The translations under genes were made by a program, and so were the position numbers. Of a stretch of DNA of 57,520 bases, positions 6,299-56,941 are shown piece after piece (position 1 is the first letter of the stretch; each line of letters opens with the position of its first letter). The notes beneath the pieces are model-generated. The model was not told the origin of the DNA. It saw only the letters and a list, made by a program, of their open reading frames with translations, and did no database searches. Source of the stretch: Candidatus Hydrogenedentota bacterium (GTDB lineage Bacteria; UBA8481; J006); the NCBI GenBank assembly GCA_003697085.1, contig RFFU01000120.1, positions 1 to 57,520 on the forward strand. Reading direction: 5' to 3'.

Positions 6299-6690
6299 TT
6301 ACAGCCACGTAACCTGGTTTGAAGTGCTTTTTTTCTCCTCTGCATCATTCCAAGGCGTTAGCGCCAAGTAATTCTCTCCGGGTGGTATTCCGCACCCACG
6401 TGTCATTCCAAGTCCCTCGCATCCGCTCGGGACAGGCTTCACGAGGAAACCAATTGATCCGGTACCCCCTGCCGGGGTCGGGTTGGCTACCGTGATGGAT
6501 TCCTCGTCGGGCATCACGCCCGCCTCGGAATGACACCACGGACGAATCGGCAATTCGCAGACTGGAGAGTCTGCGCTCTACATCTCCTGTTCCATTTTTC
6601 CTTTTGCCTTTTGACTTTTGATTTTCTCTTTTTTCCGTGTCTTCCGTGGTTTCCCTTCTTCCCGCGTTTTCCGTGGTCTTGTTTGACCCC
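6299..6690 (-). repeat. Composite intergenic repeat array 1 (after the permease gene)
   Basis: The 604-base gap between the lipoprotein and permease genes holds no gene. Reading away from the permease stop it contains: ccacggaaaacgcg/ccacggaagacacgg units, a purine run of caaaagtcaaaaggcaaaagg type, an 18-nt hairpin with a GGAG loop (6557-6574), and a block running from gtgtcattccgag to gaggaatcc. The same modules in the same order recur at 23771-24204, 49050-49567 and 56370-56941. Confidence 0.85.
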
Positions 6691-6696
6691 CCGTTC

Positions 6697-7554
6697 TCAA
6701 TACGTTAGATACGTTCCCTCTCGCAGAAGAGCACGGTACCCCGATTCAAGGACAAACAAGCCCACCGGAAGATAAAGAAGGCTCTGAATCCCCAGAACCG
6801 TAAGAGCCGCAGTATCCCATCTGCCATGAGCGAGCAGCGCCCGCGCGGCGTTTATCGCGTGGGTCGCCGGGAGGAGTTCGGCAAATCGCTCGAGGAAATT
6901 CGGAAGGAGACTCACGGGAAAATAGACGCCCGTGAGAACCGCTCCCGCACCGCCGAGAATCGTCGCGACTCTCCCCAGTTTGCGCAACCTCATCTCCAGA
7001 CCCGCTTGGAAGAACCCCAAGCCCAAGGAAGCCGGGAGGGCGAGCAACAGGATCGGAATAACCGCCGCTAATCGTTCCAGACGAAGATGCCCTCCCAACG
7101 AAAGCAAAACGCTCAAGACAAAAACGGCCTTGAAAACGTTCTGTCCGATCTCACGAACGACAGACGCATTCAGAAGCGTCAGCAAGGAGATACGAAGACT
7201 CAAGATTATCTCCAACGTACCATTCCCGAATTCCCTCATCAGAAACGCTCTCGGCGCGTAAACCACCCCGGCTGTTGTGCCGTAAACCACCACGCCGATC
7301 ACGGCAAAGGTAAAGTAATCGCTTCCGTTGAGCAGTTTGGAATCGACGAGTTTCGCGACGTAGAAGAGCGCCACGAAGAAAAGGAGCGCAGAAAGGCCGC
7401 TGATGAGAAAACTGAGTCTGTAGGCGACACGACCCGCCATATCCCGCTCCATCAGAGCGTAGAGCGCCGTCCAGAAGTCTCTCCCCATTCCCCGCCGTCT
7501 CTCGGCTCGGCCGTGTCCCCCCGTCTTTTCCGTCATCGAAAAGAGCTCTTTCAC
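6697..7554 (-). CDS. ABC-2 type transporter permease
   Basis: Membrane subunit of an ABC exporter, about 285 residues with roughly six hydrophobic segments (e.g. LSFLISGLSALLFFVALFYV, TILGGAGAVLTGVYFPVSLL), the usual ABC-2 layout. The GTG at 7554 is preferred as start because it overlaps the ATPase stop as GTGA and has a GAGGGGGG-type Shine-Dalgarno a few bases upstream; the ATG at 7536 has none. Together with the adjacent ATPase it makes a two-gene exporter. The substrate is not evident; DrrB-type drug or lipid exporters and polysaccharide exporters share this fold. A repeat array starts within about 25 nt of its stop codon. Confidence 0.88.
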   Translation of the reverse strand: MKELFSMTEKTGGHGRAERRRGMGRDFWTALYALMERDMAGRVAYRLSFLISGLSALLFFVALFYVAKLVDSKLLNGSDYFTFAVIGVVVYGTTAGVVYAPRAFLMREFGNGTLEIILSLRISLLTLLNASVVREIGQNVFKAVFVLSVLLSLGGHLRLERLAAVIPILLLALPASLGLGFFQAGLEMRLRKLGRVATILGGAGAVLTGVYFPVSLLPNFLERFAELLPATHAINAARALLAHGRWDTAALTVLGIQSLLYLPVGLFVLESGYRALLREGTYLTY

Positions 7555-8234
7555 CCGTCCCCCCTCGTATATTGAATCGCTCCAAAACGGCCCGCGCGGC
7601 ATTCAATTCGTCCCTCCGCCTCCGCCAGCACCTCGGGGTCATGGGTCGCAACCATAATACTTCTTCCCTTCCGCGCCAGACCGCGAATCATCGCAAGAAC
7701 GATTGCTCGCCCCTCTTCGTCGATCGAACGCGTCGGCTCGTCCAATAACAATAACGATGCACGGGTAAGCAGCGCTCGCGCCACGCTCAAACGAATCCTC
7801 ATTCCCGTCGAATAAGTCCAGACCGGCTGATGAATCGCATCTCTCTCCAACCCCGCCCGTAGCATCGCTTCCTCAATACCGGACACCGGATCCGCTGAAA
7901 GGCGGGCGAAGAATCGGAGATTCTGATACCCCGTCAGGCGCTCGTAAAATTGGCGTTCCTGCGTCGGACCGTAAAAAATTTCCTCCACAGCACGATGAAT
8001 CCGTCCGGAATCCGGTTCGAGAATCCCGGCCGCCAAACGCAAGAAGGTCGTCTTCCCGGAACCATTGGGACCATACATTGCCAGAAACCTTCCCCTCGGA
8101 ATCTCCAACGTCACTCCCTCGAGCGCCGTCACGATTCTCCGGTCCCAGTGCCAAAACCGCTCTCCCGTGCGGTGAATACGAAAGGTTTTTCTGAGGTTCT
8201 CGCATCGGAGAACCCAGTGAGCCGTTGATTTCAC
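7551..8234 (-). CDS. ABC transporter ATP-binding protein (ABC-2 exporter)
   Basis: Nucleotide-binding subunit, 227 residues. Walker A is GPNGSGKTT, Walker B is LLLLDEPT, and the H-loop histidine lies in VATHDPEV. The signature is the variant YSTGMRIRLSVAR rather than LSGGQ, as is common in ABC-2 and CcmA-like ATPases. The coding end overlaps the permease start as GTGA, so the two are translationally coupled. The 263 bases upstream, to the GYF gene stop, contain only short low-complexity sequence, so the exporter may have its own promoter there. Confidence 0.92.
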   Translation of the reverse strand: MKSTAHWVLRCENLRKTFRIHRTGERFWHWDRRIVTALEGVTLEIPRGRFLAMYGPNGSGKTTFLRLAAGILEPDSGRIHRAVEEIFYGPTQERQFYERLTGYQNLRFFARLSADPVSGIEEAMLRAGLERDAIHQPVWTYSTGMRIRLSVARALLTRASLLLLDEPTRSIDEEGRAIVLAMIRGLARKGRSIMVATHDPEVLAEAEGRIECRAGRFGAIQYTRGDG

Positions 8235-8497
8235 GTCATCTTCCCTTTACGAATGTGTGCACCGCTGAAGAAAGAGATCTCCGACGGGCGAAGCCTGTGG
8301 GCTCTGCCCACTACAAATACCCGCTCGGCGATCAGCATTCAATTTCCTAAGGAACGAAAGAGGCATTCGTTCGCCTCTGGTAAAGAGAAATCGCCCGGAA
8401 ACGAAGCACGTCCGCCGTTTCATCTCTTCTTTTTTTCTCTTCTCCGTAACCACGGTGCATCCCCGGACATCGTACGCGCGCCGTATCCGTGCCATTC

Positions 8498-8938
8498 CTA
8501 AAGATTCCGCCGCAAGATTTCTTTCTCGATCACCGCTTGCTCGCTCGGATAGTATTCCCTCCAGTGCTTCTTCTTTTGGCGGAGGAGAAGATCGTCCCCC
8601 GCCGCACGGCAGATTTTTTCGAGACGTTCGAGATCGATCCCGCCTTCCGTCCCTTTTTTTTCCTCCGCCGGAACGGAAGGTTGTGCGACCGGCGACGAGG
8701 TTGATCCCGCCTCCACAGCAACACTCTCGCTCCTTTCCGATTGTCCCGGATTGTTCGTCGCCGGAAGAGGCGGGGAAACGGCCGATGAACCAAAGAGTTC
8801 GGGAAAAGCACTCGCTTCCCTCCATTCCGCTTCCCCCTCGACACAGACCGGTTCGTCCGCCCGCACCCGACCCACTAAGTCATTTCCCTCGTACGGGCCG
8901 TCAACCTCGCCATCACGAAAAAGATAAAATCGTGTCAT
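8498..8938 (-). CDS. GYF_2-like domain protein coupled to dxs
   Basis: 146-residue protein of unknown function. The first ~50 residues (FYLFRDGEVDGPYEGNDL, then EWREASAFPEL) fit the GYF_2/DUF4339 pattern, a small fold that usually binds proline-rich or other peptide segments. A low-complexity Ser/Pro/Glu linker (about 52-92) and a charged C-terminal segment (DLERLEKICRAAGDDLLLRQ onwards) follow. There is no signal peptide or membrane segment, so it is probably cytoplasmic. The ATG overlaps the dxs stop as ATGA, so it is likely made together with Dxs. The link to isoprenoid synthesis is positional only. Confidence 0.7.
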   Translation of the reverse strand: MTRFYLFRDGEVDGPYEGNDLVGRVRADEPVCVEGEAEWREASAFPELFGSSAVSPPLPATNNPGQSERSESVAVEAGSTSSPVAQPSVPAEEKKGTEGGIDLERLEKICRAAGDDLLLRQKKKHWREYYPSEQAVIEKEILRRNL

Positions 8939-10911: not shown

Positions 10912-10925
10912 TCCCCCTCCTCTCA

Positions 10926-11795: not shown

Positions 11796-11947
11796 GGATT
11801 TTTCACTCTCTTCCTTGAATGATCACACATGTTAACATTGAATTGTTCCCGCCGCGCTTTCCAAAAATTCACAGCGAACTCCGAGGATGGGAAAACCGGC
11901 CCCCCCACCGTAATACTCTGTTTGAAATTAATCGGCACGAATCCATT

Positions 11948-12298
11948 CTAAAACGTTACGCCGTCATCATCGTCGGAAAGAGCGGCGACGCTGAAGAGAT
12001 CATCCCCCCCTTCCTCGCCATCTTCCTCCTCCTCGGTTCCTTCGCTTATCCCTTCCTCTTCCCCGGCGATCCGTTTTTCCAATTCCTCAATCCTCAACCG
12101 CGCACGATTGAGCATTTTCGAGGATTCCGCGTGAAGTTTGATTCCCTTTTCGTACAGATGAATGGCTTCTTCAAGCGGCACATCCTCTTTCTCTAACTCG
12201 GCCACCACCCGTTCCAGTTCCTCCAACAACTCCTCGAACGTCTTTCCTTTTCCCTTCCCGCCCTTTCCGGTTTCCTCCGGCTTTCTCTTCGCCATCAT
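11948..12298 (-). CDS. xseB: Exodeoxyribonuclease VII small subunit
   Basis: Small helical subunit of ExoVII, which degrades single-stranded DNA in mismatch repair and recombination; several copies bind each XseA. Core motif: TFEELLEELERVVAELEKEDVP, then LEEAIHLYEKG. The start ATGATG overlaps the xseA stop as ATGA; AGGAAGG and GGAGG lie upstream. The first ~15 residues are Lys/Gly-rich, and the C-terminus carries an acidic tail (EEEEDGEEGGDD), making the protein longer than the ~80-residue norm. The tail is probably disordered. About 150 bases separate it from ispA. Confidence 0.93.
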   Translation of the reverse strand: MMAKRKPEETGKGGKGKGKTFEELLEELERVVAELEKEDVPLEEAIHLYEKGIKLHAESSKMLNRARLRIEELEKRIAGEEEGISEGTEEEEDGEEGGDDLFSVAALSDDDDGVTF

Positions 12299-15124: not shown

Positions 15125-16075
15125 TCACCGCAAATCAGAATCTTTACCGGAGTTCTCCAGGATCCCGCAAAAAGAAAGAATTGCCACAGAAGAGAAAGGT
15201 GAGGAAGAAGGCAAGATGCAGAAGGAAAAAGGAAGAAGGAAAGGGCAAAAGGAAATGCAGCGCAGGTTCTCCAACCCGGGAGCGAAGGCATCCTGCCTGC
15301 AGAAATAAGAGCGGGATATAGGCTTGGCATGGAGGGTAGGTTCTCCAACCTGCGGTGGGGTGATCGGCATGGCGCAGACAGGAGTGTCTACGCTCCACAT
15401 GAAACGGTAACGGAGCGCGAACCCCACAGAGCCGGTCATGGGGGATTGGGATGTCTCGGACAAGAGCATCCGGGCTCCAATACCGTGCTCCAATATAAAG
15501 GTACGTTGTACTACTCCGCCAAGGACCATCAGTATCTCCATCGTCTCCGAGGAAATCCCAGGGTAATCGTCGAACGAAAGAAGCGCGCCCAGAAATATCT
15601 CGTACGACTGATCCGGAAACTTCCGCTCGAAATCGCGCTTGATCTCGGCCTTCGCCCAGCCGTGCCGGTTGTAGAGGAAGGCCGCATCAACCGGATCCTT
15701 CGGTTCGATCGGCCGCCCGGCCGCGTAGATTTTATTGAGAAAAATATCGTAGTCGGAGGCCATTCGGATCCCTTCCCACTTCTCGATCGGATCGATCCGT
15801 GAAAAGGGAAAGAAAACAAACGAAACCTTAACGCCCTCGATCCACAAATCGATATTGTCGATCCCCTCCGTCTCCGACTCCACATCGAAAAAAGAACGCG
15901 CCTTCGTCGAAACCCTTCGAAAAGAAAACTCCTTCTCGTAAAAGAAATCGAGGTCGATGCTCTCCCGGTACCGATGCCGGAACATCACGGCCGAGCCGCC
16001 CGCGAGATGGAATTCCGGAAATGTCTCCCCGACCCGTTTCGCCAGTCCCCTAAGTCTGTTAATCCTTTCCTTCAT
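15125..16075 (-). CDS. AbiEii-type nucleotidyltransferase toxin with a repeat-derived C-terminal tail
   Basis: Residues 1 to about 195 match the AbiEii/DUF1814 nucleotidyltransferase family of type IV toxin-antitoxin systems: GGSAVMFRHRYRESIDLDFF at 26-45, with Asp41 and Asp43 as predicted metal ligands, and DYDIFLNKIYA further on. In characterised members the enzyme modifies tRNA or other targets and is countered by the upstream antitoxin. From about residue 196 the frame runs into intergenic repeats (VGEPTLHA, QVGEP, GLENL and hydrophobic runs come from hairpin and polypyrimidine modules), so the last ~120 residues are not native. The start overlaps the antitoxin gene by 17 nt, typical of co-translated pairs. 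Activity cannot be judged because the tail may destabilise it. Confidence 0.75.
   Translation of the reverse strand: MKERINRLRGLAKRVGETFPEFHLAGGSAVMFRHRYRESIDLDFFYEKEFSFRRVSTKARSFFDVESETEGIDNIDLWIEGVKVSFVFFPFSRIDPIEKWEGIRMASDYDIFLNKIYAAGRPIEPKDPVDAAFLYNRHGWAKAEIKRDFERKFPDQSYEIFLGALLSFDDYPGISSETMEILMVLGGVVQRTFILEHGIGARMLLSETSQSPMTGSVGFALRYRFMWSVDTPVCAMPITPPQVGEPTLHAKPISRSYFCRQDAFAPGLENLRCISFCPFLLPFSFCILPSSSPFSSVAILSFCGILENSGKDSDLR
15180..15410 (+). repeat. Composite repeat array 2 (inside the 3' part of the toxin frame)
   Basis: Contains a purine-rich run (15180-15255), GGAG-loop hairpins at 15262-15279, 15336-15353 and 15374-15391, and a gcatcctgcctgcag segment near 15289. The segment 15235-15279 matches 16393-16439 on the same strand, so similar copies flank the toxin/antitoxin genes as direct repeats. 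Confidence 0.8.
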
Positions 16076-16331: not shown

Positions 16332-16369
16332 CGCGTGGGAATGCACAGGTACATGGTGAGCCACCTGGA

Positions 16370-16477
16370 GCGGCAAGGAAAAAGGGGGAAGGGAAGGAAA
16401 GGGCAGGAGAAAATGGAGCGTGCAGGTTCTCCAACCTGGTCTGAAACTGTCAAACTGTAAGAATGACACCTTTTGTC
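16370..16477. repeat. Composite repeat array 3, with end module abutting the rny stop
   Basis: Purine run, a GGAG-loop hairpin (16422-16439), then the end module (tgtcaaactgtaagaatgac, 16448-16467, followed by acctttt), which stops directly against the rny TGA. Matching end modules abut rplU (24173-24204) and mfd (49538-49567). The internal purine run is inverted relative to those arrays. Confidence 0.8.
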
Positions 16478-21338: not shown

Positions 21339-22586
21339 TCATTCGAAGTACTCCATTTCACGCCCCTCGACAATCACGGTCTCGCCGTCCCGTACGCCCG
21401 CTCCACGCAATTCGTCCACGGCACCGATCCGCTCCAGAAACCTCCAGAACCGCCTCCATCCCTCAAGGTCACCGGGATCGTATTTCTCCAGATATCTCCT
21501 CACGGCCGCGCTCTTCAATTCGTAGATTCCCTCTTCCACCTTCTCCACCTCGATCGGCTCCGCTCCCCGCTCCGGCGACGCCCCCGAAACAGGAACAACA
21601 ATCCCCTCCGCCGGATACGGCTCCGGAGCAGGAAGTTCCTTCAGTTTCGCAATGAGATGATCGAGAAGCGACTCGATTCCCTCGCCGGTGACGGCGCTGA
21701 TCTCCATAAGAGCCGCATCGAGACGCGGCCGGGCGAAACCCAGATCGGATTTCGTTATGACCACCATCTCCGGCTTCCGCACCGTATCCCCCGGATATTC
21801 CTCCAGTTCCTTTCGAATCAACCGGTAGTTCCTTTCCGGATCCGGAAGGGACCCGTCCACCAGATGCAACAGAAGCCTCGTCCGCTCAATGTGTCTCAAG
21901 AAACGCAACCCCAATCCTTTCCCGGTGTGGGCCCCTTCAATCAAACCGGGAAGATCCGCCACGGTAAATGTCTCGCCCTTCCACTCCACGACTCCCAACT
22001 CCGGTTGCCTTGTCGTGAAAGGATAGGGTGCGACTCGCGGGCGCGCCGCGGATATGCGGGACAGAAGCGTCGACTTCCCCGCGTTGGGGAGACCAACTAA
22101 GCCGACATCGGCAATGAGACGAACCTCGAGGCGCACGCGAACCCGTTCTCCCGCTTGCCCCAAGCCGCGCTGACGCGGAGCCCGTCGCGTGGGGGTTGCG
22201 AAGGCCGCGTTCCCCTTGCCTCCCTTTCCCCCGCGCGCAACCACAAGTGTCTCGCCTTCCTCGAAAAGGTCCGCCAAAACCCTGCCGTGATCGGCCTCGC
22301 GGACCACGGTACCGCACGGGACCTCCAAAATACGATCCTTACCCCGGCGCCCCGTCCGATTCCTCGGCCGTCCTGAGGCACCGCCCCCGGCTTCAATTCT
22401 TCTTATCGACGAAAGATGCGAAAGCGAACGAAGATGGCGTGAGGCTCGGAAAAGAATATTCCCTCCGCATCCGCCATCCCCCCCGTCCGGTCCTCCAAAC
22501 TCGACAAATTTCTCCCTGCGGAACGAAACGCACCCGTCTCCGCCTCGGCCGGCCTCCAGTTCCAATTCTACCTCATCGACCCACAT
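21339..22586 (-). CDS. obgE: GTPase Obg/CgtA
   Basis: Ribosome-associated GTPase needed for 50S assembly and stress response. Domains: glycine-rich Obg fold (residues 1-155, AGRGGDGCVSFRREKF), G domain with G1 GLPNAGKST, G3 DLPG and G4 TKSD, then a C-terminal OCT-type region of about 70 residues (GIYELKSAAVRRYLEKY). The start was set at MWVDEVELELEAG by comparison with the family (M-F-V/I-D-E); an in-frame ATG four codons earlier is possible. It follows rpmA on the same strand, a common arrangement, with a terminator-like hairpin between them. Confidence 0.96.
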   Translation of the reverse strand: MWVDEVELELEAGRGGDGCVSFRREKFVEFGGPDGGDGGCGGNILFRASRHLRSLSHLSSIRRIEAGGGASGRPRNRTGRRGKDRILEVPCGTVVREADHGRVLADLFEEGETLVVARGGKGGKGNAAFATPTRRAPRQRGLGQAGERVRVRLEVRLIADVGLVGLPNAGKSTLLSRISAARPRVAPYPFTTRQPELGVVEWKGETFTVADLPGLIEGAHTGKGLGLRFLRHIERTRLLLHLVDGSLPDPERNYRLIRKELEEYPGDTVRKPEMVVITKSDLGFARPRLDAALMEISAVTGEGIESLLDHLIAKLKELPAPEPYPAEGIVVPVSGASPERGAEPIEVEKVEEGIYELKSAAVRRYLEKYDPGDLEGWRRFWRFLERIGAVDELRGAGVRDGETVIVEGREMEYFE

Positions 22587-22627
22587 TCGCCACAGCATCC
22601 CATCTGAGATTTCCCCGAAAACAACAA

Positions 22628-22651
22628 AGCCGCCTTCTCTCGAAGACGGCT
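22628..22651 (-). terminator. Intrinsic terminator after rpmA
   Basis: On the minus strand AGCCGTCTTC, loop GAGA, GAAGGCGGCT form a 10-bp stem with one mismatch, followed by TTTGTTGTTTTC. It sits about 100 bases after the rpmA stop and before obgE. Confidence 0.6.
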
Positions 22652-22749
22652 CGGTGCTCTAATTCACATTCCGGAACCCAGAGTCATTCGTGACGGCGGC
22701 GCACGGCGTTTTTGAAAATGGTCTCCTCGCCCGAATGCGGTGCCCGAAA

Positions 22750-23010
22750 TCAGGCGCTCTCGACCGCGTAAACCGATACGACGCGGCGATTGCCCTTCCG
22801 CTCGTTCACCACGATTCCGTCGCGCAGAGCAAAGAGCGTATGGTCCCGGCCGCATCCGACCCCCGGCCCCGCCGAAACCTTTGTTCCCCGCTGCCGCACA
22901 AGAATCGCGCCCGCACGGATTCTTTGCCCACCAAAAACCTTATAGCCCAAACGCTTCGATTCGCTGTCCCGGCCGTTGCGGGAGGAACCAACTCCCTTCT
23001 TGTGTGCCAT
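22750..23010 (-). CDS. rpmA: 50S ribosomal protein L27
   Basis: 86 residues, standard L27 ([36 protein letters not shown]). The N-terminus reaches toward the peptidyl-transferase centre. It starts directly with MAHKKG, and an in-frame TAG lies two codons upstream of the ATG, so the N-terminal extension that Prp removes in Firmicutes cannot be encoded. AAGGAG lies eight bases upstream. It follows prp after 175 bases. Confidence 0.98.
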
Positions 23011-23185
23011 CTCCTACTCTCCTTCTCGTCTTCTTCCTTGAACCGCCGGCCGGGGATTGTGCATCACCGCGAAATAATCCCCAGTTCGGCGGCATTCGCT
23101 TCTTCCGATCCTAAAAAGGCCCTTCGCATTCTCGCGCGCCAACCTCCGGATCAGGAATCTATTCTACGCCATACACATTCCCGCT

Positions 23186-23497
23186 TCAATCAAATTCCGC
23201 ACTTCCCCTCACCTCGATCGCCTCCGGATGTTTTGTTTCCATCTCCCGCAACCCCAGTTCCAACGTCCGAAGGAGAACCCGTCCTTTCTCACCCAATCGG
23301 TCCCACCGAACCCTTATCTCCCCCCTCTCGACTTTTTCAACTTCAATCATTTCCCCCGCCACCTCCTCCAACGCGGTTGTGATCGTGTGAACAAGTGTCG
23401 AGACGCCGGCACAGACGAGATCCTCTCCCCGGGGGGCCACACCCGAATGCCCCTTTACCGTCAATCCATTCTCCTTCAAGAATATGCGAATCACCAC
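23186..23497 (-). CDS. prp: Prp-type ribosomal processing cysteine protease (YsxB family)
   Basis: 103 residues with the family's two catalytic motifs: GHSG (His; VKGHSGVAPRGEDLV) and CAGVS (Cys; VCAGVSTLVHT). In Staphylococcus this enzyme cuts an N-terminal extension from L27. Gene order rplU-prp-rpmA is the normal one. Start is GTG GTG with no Shine-Dalgarno. It is separated from rplU by ~700 bases of repeats, so it may no longer share the rplU promoter. Its substrate here is unclear because L27 lacks the extension. Confidence 0.9.
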   Translation of the reverse strand: MVIRIFLKENGLTVKGHSGVAPRGEDLVCAGVSTLVHTITTALEEVAGEMIEVEKVERGEIRVRWDRLGEKGRVLLRTLELGLREMETKHPEAIEVRGSAEFD

Positions 23498-24204
23498 GGA
23501 AAAAGGATAGCAAGGTCGATCTCAAAAAGAAACCGAAAGCCTCCGGCGAGCGACCCGCTGGTCGCCCCCTCCCTCTTCTCCGCCCAGACAAGATGCCTGC
23601 GCTCCCCCCCCCTCCCTTGTTCATGTCCTTGCACTTGCCCTCGCCCTTGCCTTTGCCTTTCCGTCGTCTTCTTTCGTCGTTTTCGTCGTTTATCGATTTC
23701 CGTTTACCGTCTTTCGATTTTTTTCTGAACGCATTCGGAACACCCAAGAGTCTCTTCGCTGACAAAAGTGTCCACACCCCATATTGCGGCGAAAATGGCG
23801 CATGGGTTCTCCAACCTGCGGACGGCAAATCGTGCACTCGTGGAAGATTCCTCGTTGGGCTGCGCCCGCCTCGGAATGACACTACGGGCGGATCGCCCGT
23901 CGCCGCTACAAGCGCTGGTCGCGCCAGGAGGGCGACCGGCCGGTCGCCCCTACAGTCCGCGATCCAATCCATCCGCCTCCTTTTCTCCATCGTTTTTCGC
24001 AGACGAGAGAGTCTGTGCTCTACTCTCCCTTTTTCCTTTTCCTTTTTGCCTTTTGACTTTTGCCTTTCTCTTTCCGTGTCATTCCGTGTCTTCCGTGGTT
24101 TCATTCCTTCCGCTTACTTCGCGTTTTCCGTGGTTAACTGCCTTTCCGTGCGTTCCCGCAATACTGAAAGTGTCAAACTGTAAGAATGACCCCTTTTTTG
24201 ACTT
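23498..24204 (-). repeat. Composite repeat array 4 (between rplU and prp)
   Basis: The longest array. Reading away from the rplU stop: end module (24173-24204), ccacggaaaacgcg and ccacggaagacacgg units, the 7-bp purine repeat, a gcacagactctctcgtctgcg segment, the 20-bp palindrome at 23930-23949, a block from gtgtcattccgag to gaggaatc, and a GGAG-loop hairpin (23802-23819). The stretch 23780-24150 is nearly identical to 49170-49510. The part nearest prp (23560-23760) is polypyrimidine-rich and less ordered. No gene seen. Confidence 0.9.
23930..23949. repeat. Perfect 20-bp palindrome in array 4
   Basis: GGGCGACCGGCCGGTCGCCC is its own reverse complement. The matching site in the array after mfd (49323-49342) has one mismatch, and a more degenerate version is seen near 56606-56625. 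Confidence 0.85.
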
Positions 24205-24549
24205 TTAGATCCCCTCGATCGATTCGATTCGAATTCGTGTCAGATCCTGGCGATGCCCGCGTTTGCGCCGGTAGTCCTTCCGGCGCTTAAACTTGAAAAC
24301 CAGTATCTTTTTCCCGCGCTCGTGAGAAATCACGCGGGCCTTTACCGTTACGCCTTCGAGGCATGGAGATCCGATCTTAACCTCGCCGGATGCTTCCGCC
24401 GCCAGGACCCGATCGAGGACCACGGTTTCCCCCGGCTCCGCGTCAAGGCGATTCACCAAGAGAATATCGCCTTCCTCGACACGGTATTGTCGCCCATCGC
24501 AATCAACGATCGCGTAACGCTCTTCGTTTTTCTCCATAACCGCCATCAT
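24205..24549 (-). CDS. rplU: 50S ribosomal protein L21
   Basis: L21 (RYAIVDCDGRQYRVEEGD, KVKARV-type core, FKFKRRKDYRRKRGHRQ). The start is set near MMAVMEKNEERYAIV, close to the usual family start; the frame is open 22 codons further to 24615, but those residues (KKLVAPGVGLSYNPP) are not part of L21. First gene of the rplU-prp-rpmA group. Its stop codon is directly followed by a repeat array. Confidence 0.95.
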   Translation of the reverse strand: MMAVMEKNEERYAIVDCDGRQYRVEEGDILLVNRLDAEPGETVVLDRVLAAEASGEVKIGSPCLEGVTVKARVISHERGKKILVFKFKRRKDYRRKRGHRQDLTRIRIESIEGI

Positions 24550-24615
24550 AATCGAGGGCGGATTGTAGGAAAGACCCACACCCGGCGCAACAAGTTTCTT
24601 CGGATTTTTTCTCAT

Positions 24616-31328: not shown

Positions 31329-31807
31329 ACTCTGACTAGCCGCCGCGGCCGCGCGACAACCGCCTGCCCTTCTTTCTTTTTAAATTCATCAGATGAATTC
31401 ATCAGAAAATTTTGTGAGGACAAGACCGCTGTTTTTTCCTTTTTCCTTTCGCCTTCTTCCTTTTTCCTAGAAGCGGTTTCATAAGGCTTTCATTCCCCTT
31501 GATATTGCAGGATTTTCGAGGCCGGAGCGGTACTTATGAAACCGCTTCTAGTGACTTTTGCCTTTTTCTCTTCCGTGTCTTCCGTGGTTTTCTTCCTCCG
31601 TGCATTCCGCGTTGTTCCCAAATTTGAAAATTCCGCTTACTTGTTCCTTCATTTCACAAGAGTTGCAGGCGGCACGAGTCCTGCTAGAATCCTTTCCCTA
31701 AACGCCAAACGGAGTTACAAATTTCGCCGCAGAGGAAATTCGAGAGGAATTTAGGCAACAGCGCGCGAAAATCATCCGATTCAAGCCGAAAAGGAGGCAA
31801 AAGTAAG
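31329..31807. repeat. Composite repeat array 5 with nested inverted-repeat element
   Basis: 479 bases between mobBA and ackA without a gene. Near 31384-31406 a 10-bp direct repeat (aattcatcag) occurs twice three bases apart. Polypyrimidine runs and ttccgtgtcttccgtgg units on the plus strand (31430-31610) are the composite modules in the minus orientation, opposite to the upstream gene. An 85-bp element is inserted at 31467-31551. The final ~60 bases before ackA carry its GGAGG. Confidence 0.8.
31467..31551. mobile_element. 85-bp MITE-like element with perfect 19-bp terminal inverted repeats
   Basis: CTAGAAGCGGTTTCATAAG at 31467-31485 is exactly reverse-complemented at 31533-31551, around a 47-bp centre. 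It interrupts a polypyrimidine run of the composite repeat, whose copies elsewhere are continuous at this point. It is too short to encode a protein. CTAG at each tip may be part of the repeat or a 4-bp target duplication. Confidence 0.65.
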
Positions 31808-37563: not shown

Positions 37564-38038
37564 AAAAAAGCCCCAACTCTCCACTTTCTCCCTCTCCTGG
37601 GTTTCCGCGTGTTCCGAGTCTTTCCGTCTGCTTGGTGGTTTACTTCGTTTCCTGTTTTTCGTCTTCCGGTCTTCGTTTTCCATTTTCAAACGTTTTTTCC
37701 CTTTTTCTTTTTGCCCTTTGCCTTTTGACTTTTGCCTTTTTCTCTTCCGTATCCTCCGTGTGCTCCGTGGTTCCACCTCGTCGGTGTATTCCGTGTTTTC
37801 CGTGGTCCCCCCTTCCGCGCGTCCGCGTTTTTGTTGTGGTTTCCCTCGTTTACCGTTCTTCATTCACCGTTTTCGTTTCTTCGCCGAAACCTTTTGGAAT
37901 GCCGACCCGTTCTTTCGCAAACTGGAGAGTCCGCGCTCCACATCTCCTGTTCCCTTTTTCCTTTTTCCTTTTGACTTTTGCCTTTCTCGTTTCCGTGTCT
38001 TCCGTGGTTCCCCTTCTTCCGCGTGCTCCGTGGTCGGG
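37564..38038 (-). repeat. Composite repeat array 6 (two tandem copies, after aroD)
   Basis: 475 bases without a gene. Reading away from the aroD stop: ccacggagcacgcgg and ccacggaagacacgg units start within about 10 nt of the stop, then the purine repeat, a GGAG-loop hairpin (37917-37934), and a second set of ccacggaaaacacgg units and purine repeat (37690-37815), ending near the AsmA-like gene stop. Confidence 0.85.
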
Positions 38039-38767
38039 TCAGGAGATCAGTTCCCGCACTACCTCATATCGTATCTGACCGGGAGCAACCGGTTTCTCCC
38101 AAACACAATAAACCGGCCCTCCGAGAAGCCGTGGGAACATCCACCTCGTGCTCACGGTCTTCTTCCCCATTCCGATCATCGTCACCGGCAGGAAACACGC
38201 GATCTCTTCCGCCTGTCTTTCCAGAGTGCGCACATCCGAGACCCGCGTGGTCCGACAGGCGATCTTGATCCGCGTAACGTCCAACCGCCTTCCGGCACGA
38301 AGAATTCGCTTGAGAACGTAGTCGGGAACAATTCCGGAGAAATCGTGGTGAGAGAGCAAAATCGCCATGTCGGGACGAATCCGTCTGATCTTGCGGACCC
38401 ATCGCGCGCAATCCCACTCGATATCGACGGCATCCGCAACGTCGAGCCATTCCATTATCTTTTCCAGTCGCCCTGCTTCATCTCGATCACACCACCGCCC
38501 CCCGTCCCGCCTCCTGCGAACCGTTACGAGAACCGCCACTCCGTCCTCCTTCAGAATCTCGATCTTCGTCCGGAACAGCGTTTCTTCACGCGGAGGGACG
38601 AGGTCCAAGCGGGCCTCGACGGCCACCGGGGGATCCCGGCGGATCTCCTCGAAAAGCATCTCGGATAAGGAAAAGAGGATCAGGACGGGAAACGCCGCCG
38701 TCCGAGACCCCCATTCGACCCTTCCTCGCTTCCCTTTCGTCCCTCGAATCCGCCTCCGTCTAACCAT
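38039..38767 (-). CDS. aroD: Type I 3-dehydroquinate dehydratase
   Basis: Third step of the shikimate pathway, through a Schiff base with lysine. 242 residues. Recognisable: VEARLDLVPPREET, VAVLVTVRR, DIEWD, LLSHHDFSGIV (general base His), RIKIACRTT (Schiff-base Lys), MIGMGKKTVSTRW and YCVWEKPVAPGQI. The N-terminal ~30 residues (RRRRIRGTKGKRGR) are basic and not part of the family. The ATG overlaps the glycosyltransferase stop by 8 nt. No other aro gene is nearby. A repeat array begins right after the stop. Confidence 0.92.
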   Translation of the reverse strand: MVRRRRIRGTKGKRGRVEWGSRTAAFPVLILFSLSEMLFEEIRRDPPVAVEARLDLVPPREETLFRTKIEILKEDGVAVLVTVRRRRDGGRWCDRDEAGRLEKIMEWLDVADAVDIEWDCARWVRKIRRIRPDMAILLSHHDFSGIVPDYVLKRILRAGRRLDVTRIKIACRTTRVSDVRTLERQAEEIACFLPVTMIGMGKKTVSTRWMFPRLLGGPVYCVWEKPVAPGQIRYEVVRELIS

Positions 38768-49014: not shown

Positions 49015-49049
49015 AAGGAACCACCTCCCTCGTTCCCCCCCCCGTCACG

Positions 49050-49567
49050 TTTGCTCTCGCCCTCATCCTTGCCCTTTTTTCCGGCATTCCCTGATTTGTG
49101 TTTCCGCGCTCTTCCGCACCGCTTTTTCGTACTCTTCCGCACCGTTCTTCACAGACAAGAGCGGCGGCGCCCCAAAATACCGCGAAGATGGAGCATAGGT
49201 TCTCCAACCTGCGGAGGGCGAATCGTGCACTCGTGGGGGATTCCTCGTCGGGCTGCGCCCGCCTCGGAATGACACCACGGGCGGATCGCCCGTCGCCTCT
49301 ACAAGCGCTGGTCGTGCCAGGAGGGCAACCGGCCGGTCGCCCCTACAGTCCGCGATCCATCCGCCTCCTTTCCTCCATCGTTTTTCGCAGACGAGAGAGT
49401 CTGTGCTCTCCCCTTTTCCTTTTGCCGTTTGACTTTTGCCATTTGATTTTTGCCTTTTGCCTTTTTCCTTTTCCGTGTCTTCCGTGTGCTCCGTGGTTCC
49501 CTCCCTTCCGTGCCCTCCGTGTACTCCGGCCGCGAAATTGACAAATTGGAAGAATAACACCTTTTTT
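49050..49567 (-). repeat. Composite repeat array 7 (after mfd)
   Basis: No gene in the 553-base gap between convergent flagellin and mfd. Reading away from the mfd stop: end module (49538-49567), ccacggagcacacgg/ccacggaa units, purine repeat, gcacagactctctcgtctgcg, palindromic block (49323-49342), the block ending gaggaatcc, and a GGAG-loop hairpin (49195-49212). Nearly identical over ~350 bases to array 4. Confidence 0.9.
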
Positions 49568-52957: not shown

Positions 52958-53172
52958 TCTAAATCCGAGTCTTCCGAAATGCCACAGTCCGGCTCCAAGA
53001 GAAGGCACAAAGGCAAATCCTTCAGGAGAAAACATCCGAGAGCGTAGCCCGGTTCCGCCTTGAGAACAACTTCCACGAAGAACAAAGCGGACTTCTCTTC
53101 GCAACCCTGTCTGGGGGGGGAACACGCTCCCCGGTGTGGCGGATCGACGGCCTCTGATCCAATGCAAAACAC
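52945..53172 (-). CDS. Possible small cysteine-rich protein upstream of mfd
   Basis: 75 codons from a GTG (VFCIGSEAVDPPH) with eight cysteines and a hydrophobic middle (EVVLKAEPGYALGCFLLKDL). Its TGA overlaps the mfd ATG at 52948 as ATGA, the junction type seen repeatedly in this genome, and codon use resembles neighbouring genes. No Shine-Dalgarno and no family recognised. It may be an artefact of the mfd promoter region. Confidence 0.3.
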   Translation of the reverse strand: MFCIGSEAVDPPHRGACSPPRQGCEEKSALFFVEVVLKAEPGYALGCFLLKDLPLCLLLEPDCGISEDSDLECCG

Positions 53173-53284
53173 CTTGCCGGTAAGGAAGGAAAGAGTGTAA
53201 ACTGTGTTGCTTTGGAGGACACGGTCTCATCGCACCATCGACACTGCCGTTTTCCTCCGGCGAATCCTTCGAGGAGGGTGTGTT
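52958..53284. other. Divergent region between mfd and the hydantoinase gene
   Basis: Apart from the doubtful small frame on the minus strand, no gene. A G-run (53110-53118) and no composite repeat. A strong Shine-Dalgarno for the hydantoinase gene lies at its right end; promoters were not resolved. Confidence 0.4.
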
Positions 53285-54715
53285 ATGGGTACAATCATCA
53301 AAGGTGGTCGGGTCGTCACGGCGTCGGATTCCTTCGAGGCGGACGTTCGAATCGATGGAGAAAAAATCACGGCGATCGGCAAGAATTTGGAGGCAGGGAA
53401 CGGGGACGAAACGATCGATGCGAACGGACGCTGGATCATCCCGGGAGGAATCGATCCGCATGTCCACCTCGAACTTCCGTTCATGGGCACCATCTCGAAG
53501 GATGATTTCGATACGGGCACCCAGTGCGCACTGGCCGGAGGCACCACGACATTGATCGACTTTGCGATTCCACCGAAGGGCGAGTCGATGTTGAAGATCA
53601 TCGACGATTGGGATGCGAAGGCGAAAGACAAGGCGCGTTGTGATTACACCTACCACGCCGCCGTCACCGATTGGAACGACCAGATCGCCGAGGAGATTCC
53701 GCGGGTCGTCAAAGAGCGTGGGATCAACTCCTTCAAGATTTTCCTGGCTTATTACGGCGTCTTCGGTCTCAATGATGACGAGGCTTTCCGGGTTGTCCGC
53801 GCCGTCAAGGAAGCCGGAGGCATCGTTCTCGTCCACGCCGTGAACGGAAATGTTTTGACGGCGATGGCGACGGAGATGATCGCCAATGGACAGGGCGAGC
53901 CGATCTACCACGCTTTGTCCCAACCTCCGGAAGCGGAGGGGGAAGCAACGGGGCGGATCATCCGGTTTACCGAGATTGAAAATGGTTCTGTCTATATCGT
54001 TCACACCACCGCCATCGATGCCCTGGAGGAGATCAACGCGGGACGTCAGCGCGGCAAGGCGACGGTCCTCGGGGAAACGTGTACCCAATATTTCTTCCTA
54101 AACCAGGACCTCTACGAACTGCCGAATTGGGAAGGCGCCAAGTACGTCCTTTCCCCTCCCCTCAGACCGAAGGAACACTCCGAAGCGCTCTGGAAAGCGC
54201 TCAACAACCATACCATCGAGACGATTGGAACCGACCACTGCTCCTTCGATTACAACGGCCAGAAGAATCTGAAAGGAACACTTCCGGACGGAACACCCTT
54301 CGACGCCACGAAGGATTTCCGCTTCATTCCCAACGGTTTCAACGGGATCGAAGAGCGATTGATGATGATGTACACCTACGGGGTCAAGGACGGCCGCATC
54401 TCACCGGAGCGATGGGTGGCGACCTGCTGCACGAACGCCGCGAAGGTCTTCGGGCTCTGGCCTCGGAAGGGAACGATCGCCGTCGGAAGCGACGCCGACA
54501 TCGTGCTCTGGGATCCGGACTGCTCCGGTACCATCAGCGCAAAGACACACAAGTCCGCCGCCGATTACAACGTCTATGAGGGATACGAAATCCGCGGCCG
54601 CGCGACCACAACCTTCGTCCGCGGAAAGGTCGCGTATCGGGACGGGGAGGTTTTGGCGGAGCCGGGGAGTGGACGGTTTCTCAAGCGCGGTCCGTTCTCC
54701 GCTCATTCGATCTGA
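53285..54715 (+). CDS. D-hydantoinase / dihydropyrimidinase
   Basis: Cyclic amidohydrolase, 476 residues, opening dihydropyrimidine or hydantoin rings. Binuclear metal site: HVHLELPF (HxH), the carboxylated lysine in NSFKIFLAYYGVF, VHAVNG and HTTAIDALEEI histidines, and the catalytic Asp in IGTDHCSFDYNGQKN. The ATG at 53285 has AGGAGGG seven bases upstream; earlier in-frame starts add non-family residues. The usual HAENGD segment reads HAVNGN, which could affect substrate choice. No other pyrimidine-degradation gene is adjacent. A phosphoesterase gene follows after 37 bases. Confidence 0.92.
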   Translation: MGTIIKGGRVVTASDSFEADVRIDGEKITAIGKNLEAGNGDETIDANGRWIIPGGIDPHVHLELPFMGTISKDDFDTGTQCALAGGTTTLIDFAIPPKGESMLKIIDDWDAKAKDKARCDYTYHAAVTDWNDQIAEEIPRVVKERGINSFKIFLAYYGVFGLNDDEAFRVVRAVKEAGGIVLVHAVNGNVLTAMATEMIANGQGEPIYHALSQPPEAEGEATGRIIRFTEIENGSVYIVHTTAIDALEEINAGRQRGKATVLGETCTQYFFLNQDLYELPNWEGAKYVLSPPLRPKEHSEALWKALNNHTIETIGTDHCSFDYNGQKNLKGTLPDGTPFDATKDFRFIPNGFNGIEERLMMMYTYGVKDGRISPERWVATCCTNAAKVFGLWPRKGTIAVGSDADIVLWDPDCSGTISAKTHKSAADYNVYEGYEIRGRATTTFVRGKVAYRDGEVLAEPGSGRFLKRGPFSAHSI

Positions 54716-54752
54716 TCCCTGTCCGTTCGGCCTTCGACTCAGGGAACGAAAG

Positions 54753-55349
54753 ATGAAGATTCTCGCTTTCAATGACGTTCACACGGACCTTGCCGCCGTC
54801 CGCGCGCTCGTGGAGCGGGCCGCGGAGGTCGATCTCGTGATCGGAGCCGGAGATTTCTCGGCACAACACCGCAACCTCGATCAAACTCTCTCCGTCTTGT
54901 CCGCCATCGACAAACCGGCCCTGCTTGTCGCCGGGAATAACGAGACCGATGCCGAACTTCGCGAGGCGGCCCGCGGGTGGAAATCCGCGACGGTCCTTCA
55001 CGGAGAAACCGTCGAAATCAACGGGGAACGCTTCTTCGGGCTCGGCGGTGCCGCGGTAACCCCCTGGGACTGGAGTTTCGACCTGACCGAGGATGAATTC
55101 GAGACGGCGCTTCAAAAATGTCCCCCCGGAACCGTAATGATTCTGCACGGCCCTCCTTTCGGGTGTCTTGATAAATTCGGAGACCGGAATCTTGGAAGTC
55201 CCGCCGTCCGGAACGCGGTTGAACGCCTTCAGCCTCCGCTTGTCTTCTGCGGCCATATTCACGAACATTTCGGAACGACCGCGACAATCGGAGACTCGCG
55301 GATCATAAACGCCGGCCCCAAGGGAACCGTTATTTCCTTTCCCGCTTAG
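54753..55349 (+). CDS. Calcineurin-like metallophosphoesterase (YfcE-type)
   Basis: 198 residues. Metal-binding motifs DVHTD (12 residues in), GAGDFS, GNNETD, LHGPP and GHIHEHFG are complete. Such small enzymes hydrolyse phosphodiesters or phosphomonoesters; the substrate is not predictable. The start MKILAFNDVH is chosen because earlier codons overlap the hydantoinase gene and are not family-like; AGGGA lies about 10 bases upstream. Probably co-transcribed with the hydantoinase gene. A composite repeat starts 5 nt after the stop. Confidence 0.88.
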   Translation: MKILAFNDVHTDLAAVRALVERAAEVDLVIGAGDFSAQHRNLDQTLSVLSAIDKPALLVAGNNETDAELREAARGWKSATVLHGETVEINGERFFGLGGAAVTPWDWSFDLTEDEFETALQKCPPGTVMILHGPPFGCLDKFGDRNLGSPAVRNAVERLQPPLVFCGHIHEHFGTTATIGDSRIINAGPKGTVISFPA

Positions 55350-55520
55350 ACACGGAACAACTCGAAACCTCACGGAAGATCAAAGAAACCACGGAATGCG
55401 CGGAAGAACACGGAAAATGAGAAAGGCAAAAGTCAAAGGGAAAAAGGAAAAAGGGAGAGTAAAGCACAGACCCTCTCGTCTGCGAAGCACCGAACCGCCA
55501 ATCGCTCCCCGGTCGGCCGA
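55350..55520 (+). repeat. Composite repeat array 8 (after the phosphoesterase gene)
   Basis: Cacggaa, ccacggaatgcgcgg and acacggaa units, then the purine run (caaaagtcaaagg) and gcacagaccctctcgtctgcg, reading away from the stop codon. The later modules are missing or degraded. Confidence 0.8.
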
Positions 55521-55607
55521 GTGTGAATAAGGCGGTCGCCGGTGCCGATAGGGCATTCCTGCCGCTTACAAAGGTCCCGTGTATCTCCACCGATATGCGT
55601 TGAGGAC

Positions 55608-55628
55608 TTGACAAATGATGTAATACAT
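55608..55628 (+). promoter_or_regulatory. vapB promoter -35 and operator candidate
   Basis: TTGACA at 55608-55613, followed by ATGTA-A-TACAT (55618-55628), a palindrome between the -35 and the start codon; TAATAC also occurs twice (55621, 55636). The layout suits autoregulation by an AbrB-type antitoxin. The -10 is not clear. Confidence 0.45.
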
Positions 55629-55642
55629 GCAAAAGTAATACT

Positions 55643-55867
55643 ATGAAGGTGACGACAAAAGGTCAGGTGACCATACCGGCTCGGATTCGTGAGTACATGG
55701 ATATCTCACCGCACAGCGAGGTTGATTTCCGTATCACCGAAGGCGTCGTTGTCTTGGTCAAGAAGGAGAAGACGGATGAGCCCGCCGAAAGGTTCACCGC
55801 GTTGCGCGGCGTTTTGAAGGGAACGCGAACCACGAGGGAGTGGATGAAAGCGACTCGGGGAACCTGA
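55643..55867 (+). CDS. vapB: AbrB/SpoVT-type antitoxin, VapB
   Basis: 74 residues. Swapped-hairpin AbrB DNA-binding domain at the N-terminus (KVTTKGQVTIPARIREYMDI), then a charged C-terminal tail that would bind the toxin (FTALRGVLKGTRTTREWM). The stop overlaps the vapC start by one base (TGATG). No Shine-Dalgarno. Probably represses its own promoter through the palindrome just upstream. Confidence 0.9.
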   Translation: MKVTTKGQVTIPARIREYMDISPHSEVDFRITEGVVVLVKKEKTDEPAERFTALRGVLKGTRTTREWMKATRGT

Positions 55868-56265
55868 TGCCGGTACTGGTCGACACGAATGTGATCATCG
55901 ATGTTCTCACCGACGACCGACAGTGGGCCGATTGGTCGATCGAGCAGCTCAAAGCCAACGCCGATTCCGGGTTGATTATCAACCCGGTGGTATATGCTGA
56001 ACTGTGTTTTGGGAGTCCCTCCGTCGATTTCGTCGACGACGTCGTCAGGCAATTTGCGTTCAGATATCAGGAGATTCCCCGACAGGGGCTTTTCCGCGCG
56101 GCGAAGGCTTTTGCCCGGTACAAGAAGAGAAAGGGAACGAAGGCCGCGGTGCTCCCTGATTTCTTCATTGGCGGGCACGCTGAAGTCGCGGGCCTTTCGC
56201 TACTGACCCGCGACACCAAGAGGTTGAGCGTTTACTTTCCCGGCGTCAGACTGATCTGTCCGTAA
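55867..56265 (+). CDS. vapC: PIN-domain ribonuclease toxin, VapC
   Basis: 132 residues with the four acidic residues of the PIN active site: Asp6 (LVDTNVIIDVL), Glu45 (VYAELCFG), Asp98 (LPDFFIGGHA) and Asp116 (LTRDTKR). VapC toxins cut tRNA or rRNA sites and are held inactive by VapB. A start at 55840 is possible but would overlap vapB; the ATG at 55867 fits the family. All catalytic residues are present, so it is probably active. Confidence 0.92.
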   Translation: MPVLVDTNVIIDVLTDDRQWADWSIEQLKANADSGLIINPVVYAELCFGSPSVDFVDDVVRQFAFRYQEIPRQGLFRAAKAFARYKKRKGTKAAVLPDFFIGGHAEVAGLSLLTRDTKRLSVYFPGVRLICP

Positions 56266-56369
56266 TAAATGGTTCTGCCGCTAATCAACTCGTTATAGGA
56301 AGCGCGTGAACGTTAACCTGATTTGGTTCCACTACGCTCGCTTGATGCGGCTCCACCCGTGACTCACGA

Positions 56370-56941
56370 TATACCTGATCTGACCGAAACCACGAAAGGA
56401 AAAAGCGCGGAGCAGACAGCAGTGATGGGAACCACGGAATGTGCGGAAGAACACGGAAGGAGAGGAAGGCAAAAGGCAAAAGGCAAAAGGCAAAAGGCAA
56501 AAGGCAAAAGGAAGAAGGGAGAGTAGAGCACAGACTCTCTCGTCTGCGAGAAACGGCGGAGAAAAGGAGGCGAATGGATTGGCTCGCGGACTGTACAGGC
56601 CGACCAGCCGGTCGCCCTCTTGGCACAACCACCGCTTGCAGCGGCCACCGCCGATCCGCCCGTGGTGTCATTCCGAACAGACCGCGGGCCGACGAAAAAT
56701 TTCCCACACGCATCGTCATTCCGAGCGAACGCGAGGAATCCCCCACGAATGCGAATCAGTGCCCGTTGCGGGATACAACGTGGCGGGGATTCCTCGTCGG
56801 CGTCGCTCCGCGCCGCCTCGCTCGGAATGACAGTGGTGGTGTCGGGTTTCGCGCTCCTCGGAATAACAAGGAAAACGGGTGAGTGCCGCTTCCGCAGGTT
56901 GGAGAACCTGCGCTCCCCTTCCTGCAGGCAAGATGCCTGCG
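56370..56941 (+). repeat. Composite repeat array 9 (after vapC)
   Basis: No gene in the 676-base gap after vapC. Modules in order: ccacggaa units (56432), six perfect copies of AGGCAAA (56467-56508), gcacagactctctcgtctgcg, degenerate palindromic block near 56606-56625, gtgtcattccga to gaggaatcc block in two copies, one of them inverted, a GGAG-loop hairpin (56894-56911) and gcaggcaagatgcctgc. The last module touches the stop codon of the convergent membrane-protein gene. Confidence 0.88.
56467..56508 (+). repeat. Six perfect tandem copies of AGGCAAA
   Basis: Pure 7-bp repeat, 42 bases, with a partial seventh unit. Other arrays carry the same period with AGGCAAA/AGTCAAA variants. Confidence 0.95.

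Follow-up and report, generated by a model that had tools for sequence, protein, structure and literature searches.

The locus analyzed here, a 57,520-nucleotide stretch of DNA from a Candidatus Hydrogenedentota bacterium (the window), raises the question of why short repeats of several kinds should be strung together in a fixed order between genes, and why such strings should so often begin where a gene ends. The initial annotation described nine intergenic arrays drawing on the same modules, six of them reading away from a gene 3' end and five of these starting within about 25 nt of the stop codon. All nine are found at the places given (Table 1). The coordinates first listed mark low edges; the heads of the arrays at 6299, 23498, 37564, and 49050 lie at the high edge, where they adjoin minus-strand genes ending at 6697, 24205 (L21), 38039, and 49568 (Mfd-like). 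Five of the six arrays that obey the orientation rule are within about 25 nt of a stop; the sixth, at 56370, begins some 120 nt past the stop at 56265, and its I end lies 2 nt from a minus-strand gene. The arrays at 15180, 16370, and 31329 genuinely break the orientation rule, as had been claimed, when the gene context of each is examined. The head of array 2 (15180) faces a gene 5' end, and this array overlaps the 3' end of an AbiEii-like ORF (15125-16075, minus strand), its far part entering the reading frame. In array 3, the end module E (16441-16474) adjoins the RNase Y stop codon (16478), E alone obeying the placement rule, and the head of array 5 (31329) is 197 nt from the start codon of the acetate kinase gene. 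No Rfam family matched at the gathering score within the window.

Table 1. The nine arrays and, for array 7, the individual modules, in coordinates of the window
Feature	Coordinates	Strand	Context
Array 1: A, B, C hairpin, G block	6299..6696	-	head ~20 nt from stop of ABC-2 permease gene ending 6697
Array 2 (exception): degenerate B tract 15201-15255, then I, H, C hairpins	15172..15400	+	
Array 3 (partial): B-like tract and H hairpin	16370..16477	.	
Array 4, full copy: E, A, B, C, D, F, G, H	23498..24204	-	between rplU (24205-24615) and prp (23186-23497)
Array 5 (exception): A and B, interrupted by 85-bp MITE (31467-31551)	31433..31615	-	
Array 6: two A-B units and C hairpin	37564..38038	-	between convergent genes; head ~5 nt from stop at 38039 (3-dehydroquinase)
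Array 7, full copy: E, A, B, C, D, F, G, H	49050..49567	-	head at stop of Mfd-like gene (49568)
E end module (array 7), terminal repeat of RAYT-like element	49532..49565	-	
A (array 7), 9-nt CACGGAAGA-type tandem	49471..49522	-	
B (array 7), 7-nt CAAAAGG-type tandem	49412..49472	-	
C (array 7), GAGAGCACAGACTCTCTCGTCTGCG hairpin	49386..49410	-	
D (array 7), GTAG-tagged palindrome CTGTAGGGGCGACCGGCCGGTTGCCCTCC	49320..49348	-	
G (array 7), TGTC-tagged palindrome TGTCATTCCGAG...CGAGGAATCC	49235..49274	-	
H (array 7), CGCAGGTTGGAGAACCTATG hairpin	49190..49216	-	
Array 8: A, B, C	55350..55490	+	begins directly at metallophosphoesterase gene stop
Array 9, full copy: A, B, C, D, F, G, H, I	56386..56941	+	~120 nt past PIN-domain gene

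The proximal part of the arrays is a tandem tract, in which A repeats CACGGAA and B is a 7-mer, AAAAGGC/GTC; the measured periods, 9-10 nt for A and 7 nt for B, agree with the two tandem modules first described, and the sense strand of the A/B tract contains 3.9% T. A 7-nt period runs through the arrays at 15201, 24028, 31433, 37695, 37945, 49412, and 56466, as it does through the STRR heptanucleotide repeats of cyanobacteria, which are tandem 7-nt units of variable sequence located between genes. The likeness of B to STRRs is one of unit length and intergenic location, not of a published unit list, and, unlike STRRs, the 7-mers here form one module of a longer composite, in a genome that is not cyanobacterial by the PsaA/PsaB test. 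The GGGAATC/GGGGATT heptamers of Xanthomonas and Nostoc, for which G-quadruplexes have been proposed, contain three or four Gs and are described with neither fixed partner modules nor T-depletion (PMC4692102), in contrast to the array units, which contain G pairs only. The TAACTGA direct repeats of Beggiatoaceae share with the arrays 7-nt intergenic direct repeats and a scattered phylogenetic spread, but are located immediately before start codons and include stops (PMC4679880), whereas the array tract is stop-free and follows stop codons.

The palindromes resemble GTAG- and CGTC-tagged REPs. D (CTGTAGGGGCGACCGGCCGGTCGCCC) and C (GTAGAGCACAGACTCTCTCGTCTGCG) have the GTAG-tagged form, that is, an imperfect palindrome of 20-40 bp, one end of which carries an unpaired GTAG, and, as is the case for such REPs, their intergenic copy number is high, D being present at about 24 places and C/c at about 60 across 1.06 Mb. 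The G module, (T/C)GTCATTCCGAG...CGAGGAATCCCCCA, has the tag, the AT-starting stem, and the CCA-type tail of CGTC/TGTC-tagged REPs, a fit judged by eye, with a longer loop in many copies. One hairpin frame holds four stem sequences, both sides being changed. In common with BIMEs and tagged REPs (Di Nocera 2013, PMC3733652; Nunvar 2010, PMC2817692), the arrays have clustered short tagged palindromes, several families per genome, a location mostly downstream of genes, mosaic copying, and compensated stems. They differ in that the palindromes come after a tandem tract, in an order and orientation fixed relative to the stop codon, with hairpins beginning at least 77 nt from it. The pattern that defines BIMEs, a mosaic in which REPs alternate in orientation with constant linker motifs, is matched in part: the arrays are mosaics with conserved spacers, but contain REPs of several kinds in a set order instead of one REP in alternating orientation.

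The arrays belong to a real, genome-wide repeat family. Across 1.06 Mb of stretches from this genome, partly picked for matches to one of the window arrays, 403 of 460 module pairs keep A, B, and then the palindromes in sequence (null 230, maximum 282), as the initial annotation had proposed for the fullest copies. Among 65 A/B arrays, 24 begin no more than 60 nt downstream of a same-strand stop, compared with 5.5 for random positions inside the same intergenic regions (maximum 15 of 3000), and the other, tail end lies at a gene 3' end in only 2 arrays (null 5.5); the blind-chosen stretches contribute only 6 arrays, 4 of them anchored. The positions and orientations in this 1.06 Mb are unlike random ones, and the rule survives the comparison that the initial annotation had named as able to refute it. 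A quarter to a third of the A/B arrays lie away from any gene 3' end. Such common exceptions, the evident copying of arrays as units, and the general location of REPs downstream of genes in other genomes (PMC3733652) speak for neutral or selfish accretion, whereby REPs and tandem repeats would land anywhere and survive where they are least harmful, behind stops, with the orientation a by-product of the copying of one founder arrangement. The anchoring pattern could also come from selection against harmful placements, without any function. Harmlessness alone, however, does not predict the strand: in convergent and codirectional gaps, it is the head, not the tail, that abuts the stop (24 versus 2). 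We consider accretion of this kind a serious contender, albeit a somewhat unlikely one.

The end module, alone among the modules, comes with its own transposase. In another stretch of the genome (L096), E is found at 844-864 (plus strand) and 1890-1910 (minus strand), inverted around an ORF at 868-1911 that matches PF01797 (4e-7) and, below the cut-off, the REP-associated tyrosine transposase model NF047646 (3.5e-12). This is the arrangement of a RAYT/TIR-flanked tyrosine transposase, with a Y1 ORF between inverted repeats, and E is accordingly the repeat found at the termini of this RAYT-like element. No RAYT gene flanked by GTAG palindromes was found, the sole Y1 transposase in this 94.6% complete genome being flanked by E. 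A transposase might conceivably aim insertion at gene ends, as originally suggested for the arrays at large, and E does adjoin stop codons (within 60 nt in 7 of 8 same-strand cases). This route, however, covers E alone, which is absent from most A/B arrays; A and B come with no such enzyme in view, and neither a constant terminus nor a target duplication is seen at the proximal end. Targeted insertion is, then, highly improbable.

The homologies between arrays have a different shape. In pairwise comparisons, they begin around the A tract and stop at many distal points, at about 80 to 550 nt, and, within one array pair, patches of 99% identity adjoin patches of 85%. Such one-ended homology suggests recombinational copying, which fits better than site-specific insertion; because the only relative of the same order is too distant for empty sites to be recognized, it is from these shapes that we infer the copying mechanism.

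The tandem tract folds weakly: over the first 80 nt past the stop codon, the median is -7.6 kcal/mol for genes with an array versus -20.3 for other genes (p 6e-11). The distance between the stop and the first hairpin is 77-223 nt, with a median of 121. A full array taken whole folds no better than shuffled sequence (z -1.15). That the arrays are transcription terminators might be surmised from the rarity of canonical intrinsic terminators behind genes here (7 of 271, and none of the 24 genes with an array), as well as from Xanthomonas, where 7-mer repeats close to stops coincide more often with the beginning or end of transcripts (PMC4692102). The array hairpins, however, have no T-run after them, and an intrinsic terminator, that is, a hairpin followed immediately by a T-run, was found within 150 nt of the stop in none of the 24 anchored arrays, 16 of which lie between codirectional genes. 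Because a full array separates rplU from prp-rpmA-obg, a position in which strong termination would prevent L27 expression in the absence of a second promoter, a strong terminator is unlikely, and termination as the role of the arrays in general is very improbable.

The placement rule extends to a complete cyanobacterial genome (G048), in which 21 of 45 array heads have a stop no more than 40 nt away (null 7.8, maximum 18) and 1 tail lies at a gene 3' end (null 7.9), with the reservation that some units contain TAG, so that the called stop may fall within the repeat in about six arrays. The cyanobacterial arrays contain 3% T and have A or D modules downstream in order, with no A upstream, in a genome with more than 1000 B-type matches. 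The recurrence of head-at-stop placement in an unrelated bacterium with a different module order is a further point against accretion at harmless sites. It also bears on a possible role of Rho. In the hydrogenedentote genome, where Rho is present, the arrays might form a directional valve, such that C-poor sense RNA would escape Rho and YC-rich antisense RNA would be terminated, shielding the gene from antisense transcription; the antisense strand has a C/G ratio of 2.0 and 20.7 YC dinucleotides per 78 nt versus 1.8 for the sense strand, and the 7-nt period of the tract is compatible with this possibility. Cyanobacteria, however, are expected to lack Rho (PMC13289151), and G048, with its stop-anchored, T-free arrays, has no detectable Rho gene. 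Because this Rho-less cyanobacterium follows the same placement rule, the valve is rejected as a shared function; it could still apply to the hydrogenedentote alone, although, altogether, we regard it as very improbable.

An exact scan for A followed by B in 84,980 species yielded 16 matches, with real A/B or inverted A elements in Chromobacterium, Vogesella, Hydrogenedentes, Verrucomicrobiales, Desulfobacterales, a gammaproteobacterium, and Desulforhopalus; a minimum of five further matches fall within genes and appear fortuitous. Under strict patterns, 3 of 192 genomes share A and B, with about 2.8 expected (from 28 and 19), that is, without excess. In other genomes, A heads lie within 60 nt of a same-strand stop in 15 cases and of an opposite-strand start in 5, and the gene-end rule for A is clear in two genomes (G181 and G128) and absent in a third (G180). 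Between the arms of the inverted A elements of G181 in codirectional gaps, G.U pairs outnumber A.C (22 versus 11), an asymmetry that is partly biased by the search pattern and is suggestive only as a sign of selection on RNA. A literature search by unit sequence strings returned no relevant paper. Similar parts in the same placement in a cyanobacterium point to, but do not prove, a shared constraint on bacterial gene ends. That unrelated genomes would have filled this constraint with similar modules (CAAAAGGC 7-mers, CCACGGAG-type 9-mers, and GTAGGGGCG hairpins), acting on mRNA 3' ends or ribosome release, is a tentative proposal that we consider distinctly unlikely.

The explanation that we favor, and to which we would give about an even chance, is that the arrays are composite mosaics of the BIME kind, made of 7-mer repeats and REPs, which recombination has spread and which are retained where they provide an unstructured leader followed by 3' UTR hairpins. 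A tandem that is nearly T-free on the sense strand (the A 9-mers and the STRR-type B 7-mers) is joined to GTAG- and TGTC-tagged REP palindromes and, in some arrays, to the RAYT-like terminal repeat E. These units would have spread via ectopic recombination or gene conversion, starting in the tandem tract and proceeding outward over variable lengths, and they persist mainly with the head at a stop codon and the purines on the coding strand. The mRNA would thereby gain a long unstructured spacer past the stop and then stable hairpins, an arrangement that may be tolerated or favored and that would hold the hairpins 77-223 nt from terminating ribosomes. REPs stabilize mRNA 3' ends, and, in E. coli, translation is affected only when they are less than 16 nt from the stop (PMC12306157). 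The most likely effect of the arrays would be REP-like, with the hairpins protecting or defining mRNA 3' ends or marking intercistronic processing sites; both the presence of hairpins and their spacing from the stop agree with known REP roles, so that a role at transcript ends, raised already in the initial annotation, is possible.

These observations address a long-standing open question, namely, what the numerous short repeats between bacterial genes mean, with a strict rule that can be measured (a fixed module order on one strand, with the head at the stop) and that is seen in both an uncultured bacterium and a Rho-less cyanobacterium. In cyanobacteria, the way in which most transcripts end has itself yet to be explained (PMC13289151). 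Should the tract and the hairpins shape mRNA 3' ends, this would be testable in culturable hosts by existing methods for 3'-end mapping.

Anchoring of the arrays at gene 3' ends, as claimed in the initial annotation, is borne out against random placement. The genome sample contains 65 A/B arrays that have a gene on either side. In 24 of them, the distance from a same-strand stop to the head is 60 nt or less, compared with 5.5 expected (maximum 15 in 3000 runs) when position and strand were drawn at random within the same intergenic regions. A gene 3' end borders the tail in 2 arrays (null, 5.5), and a gene 5' end borders the head in 1 (null, 3.6). The head being enriched at same-strand stops and the tail not, the rule is real for one end and one strand. 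The anchored heads fall between -18 and 49 nt from the stop, with none from there up to 90 nt, and the neighbors are codirectional genes in 16 cases and convergent genes in 8; among blind-chosen stretches, 4/6 arrays are anchored.

The sample comprises 1.06 Mb, taken from 45 whole or partial contigs of the draft Hydrogenedentota genome (3.2 Mb, 145 contigs, 94.6% complete, G+C 57.7%; the window is on contig C13), with 770 genes called by a dicodon model (83% coding), and was scanned with ten module patterns. Counts per Mb are biased because the sample was partly picked for matches to a single window array (70 BLAST matches in the genome); gene-relative positions were no part of that choice. 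Several contigs (C14, C21, C75, C86, C88, and C101) start inside an array, and arrays, therefore, break the assembly.

All nine arrays were found at the places given in the initial annotation, and the module order holds across the sample. In its 72 clusters, 403 of the 460 pairings between unlike modules keep the order E-A-B-C-D-F-G-H-I, against a mean of 230 and a maximum of 282 in 1000 shuffles. Module orientation is consistent as well (38 to 3 for C, 18 to 4 for H, and 21 to 8 for G). A common frame, GCAG...CTGC, is found in hairpins C, H, and I and in a fourth hairpin; their stem cores differ but are all fully paired (ACT/AGT, GTT/AAC, GCA/TGC, and ACA/TGT), which means that the stem has changed on both sides in concert. 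The A+B tract contains 3.9% T on the sense strand and, given that all stop codons start with T, is almost devoid of stops in all sense frames.

Array modules and window features
Feature	Sequence or unit	Place in array	Window coordinates
E (optional)	AAAAAAGGTGTCATTCTTACAGTTTGACAGTTTC	first module going away from gene	
A	9-nt units around CACGGAAGA	after E	
B	7-nt units AAAAGGC, AAAAGTC, AAAAAGG	after A	
C	GTAGAGCACAGACTCTCTCGTCTGCG or GGAGCGCAGACTCTCCAGTCTGCG	after B, then conserved spacer	
D	GTAGGGGCGACCGGCCGGTCGCCC	after conserved spacer, then F	
G	TGTCATTCCGAG...CGAGGAATCCCCCA	after F	
H	GGAGCGCAGGTTGGAGAACCTGCG	after G	
I	GCAGGCATCTTGCCTGC	last module of full copy	
AbiEii-like ORF			15125-16075 (-)
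Part of this ORF read from array			15125-15400
rplU, array, prp, rpmA, obg			21339-24615
MITE	ends CTAGAAGCGGTTTCATAAG		31467-31551
Array used as BLAST query			49080-49565
AbrB/MazE-like small ORF, then PIN-domain gene		between two arrays	55644-56265

Several further observations concern individual arrays. The last ~90 residues of an AbiEii-like ORF are read from an array, possibly as an array-made protein tail or else as a broken gene. An 85-bp MITE with perfect inverted ends interrupts array 31329 within its B tract and has three further copies in the sampled genome (two on C67 and one on C98). On contigs C5, C15, and C52, a third tandem family, AACGGTAAACGATAAACGG-like, lies between two A-B units. 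The AbrB/MazE-like ORF and PIN-domain gene are probably a toxin-antitoxin pair, the antitoxin being assigned by eye.

The initial annotation proposed insertion targeted to gene ends. For the main array, this idea finds no support: neither a constant proximal end nor a target duplication was seen among the compared arrays. When 84 arrays and their flanks are each compared with all the others, 433 pairs share at least 120 nt of homology, which mostly starts within 40 nt of the A head and ends at scattered points, about 80 to 550 nt. Adjacent patches within array pairs differ greatly in identity: C13:56471 and C39:8715 are ~99% identical over ~150 nt of the G region and ~85% elsewhere, and arrays on C34 and C52 share a distal block only, at 96% identity. 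Our reading of these sequences is that copying would occur by ectopic recombination or gene conversion starting in the tandem tract.

The end module, with 25 occurrences in the sample, presents a different case. At locus L096, a 347-aa ORF between two inverted E copies (838-1920) matches Y1_Tnp (PF01797, 4e-7) and, below the cut-off of the model, the NCBIfam REP-associated tyrosine transposase (3.5e-12). The preferred interpretation is, therefore, that E forms the terminal repeat of a RAYT-like element resembling the TIR-flanked RAYT form (PMC3733652), is separate from the main array, and also settles at stop codons. The left E repeat of this locus codes for the final residues of an ABC ATPase gene.

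A role of the arrays at transcript ends, the other idea of the initial annotation, is plausible. A strict scan detected canonical intrinsic terminators behind 7 of 271 genes, and behind none of the 24 genes with an anchored array. The first 80 nt past the stop fold more weakly in array genes (median -7.6 versus -20.3 kcal/mol, p 6e-11), and the first hairpin begins 77-223 nt past the stop (median 121). REPs are reported to stabilise mRNA 3' ends and, in E. coli, to influence translation only when less than 16 nt separates them from the stop (PMC12306157). With hairpins placed behind a weakly folding spacer, the arrays would retain the mRNA 3'-end effect of REPs but not the effect on translation. 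That the array is a strong terminator is hardly possible because a full, 707-nt copy lies between rplU and prp (ribosomal-processing protease), rpmA, and obg, splitting a conserved ribosomal operon. As for Rho, it is present in this genome, and the antisense strand of the tract is rut-like (C/G 2.0, many YC), but arrays also occur in the cyanobacterium G048, where no Rho match was found in the complete genome; G181, G128, and G041, other genomes compared, do have matches.

The strict A pattern is present in 28 of 192 genomes (66 matches in the Hydrogenedentota genome, 68 in G128, 19 in G041, and 15 in G180; reversed pattern, 0-2) and the strict B pattern in 19 of 192. The A elements of G181 are near-perfect inverted repeats with 25-30 bp stems, many starting 0-40 nt past a stop; CCACGGAG-type inverted repeats, 25-30 bp hairpins right after stops, occur in unrelated genomes (L195-L202 and L203-L232 of G181; L103, L104). 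G048, identified as a cyanobacterium because its complete genome carries PsaA and PsaB, has 1146 matches to a wider 7-mer pattern. Of 45 of its arrays that have a gene on either side, in 192 kb, 21 have the head no farther than 40 nt from a same-strand stop (null, 7.8; maximum 18 in 2000 runs), compared with a single tail at a gene 3' end (null, 7.9). These arrays contain 3% T and continue on their outer side with A-type ACCACAGAGTCACAGAGGACACAGAG and D-type GTAGGGGCG hairpins. None of 46 arrays had A upstream of the 7-mers, and the order is B, A, D versus A, B, C, D in the Hydrogenedentota genome.

In the open-licence literature, and hence as weak evidence, we did not find descriptions of the fixed composite array, of a T-free one-strand tract as the anchored head, or of like modules that recur under this rule in distant bacteria. 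The parts themselves are of known kinds, namely, REPs with GTAG or CGTC tags that lie downstream of genes (PMC3733652, PMC2817692) and 7-mer tandems, reported 0-50 nt past the stop on the coding strand in Xanthomonas and Nostoc (PMC4692102). The parts are familiar and the rule is strict; what surprises is that it recurs in a second, distant genome.
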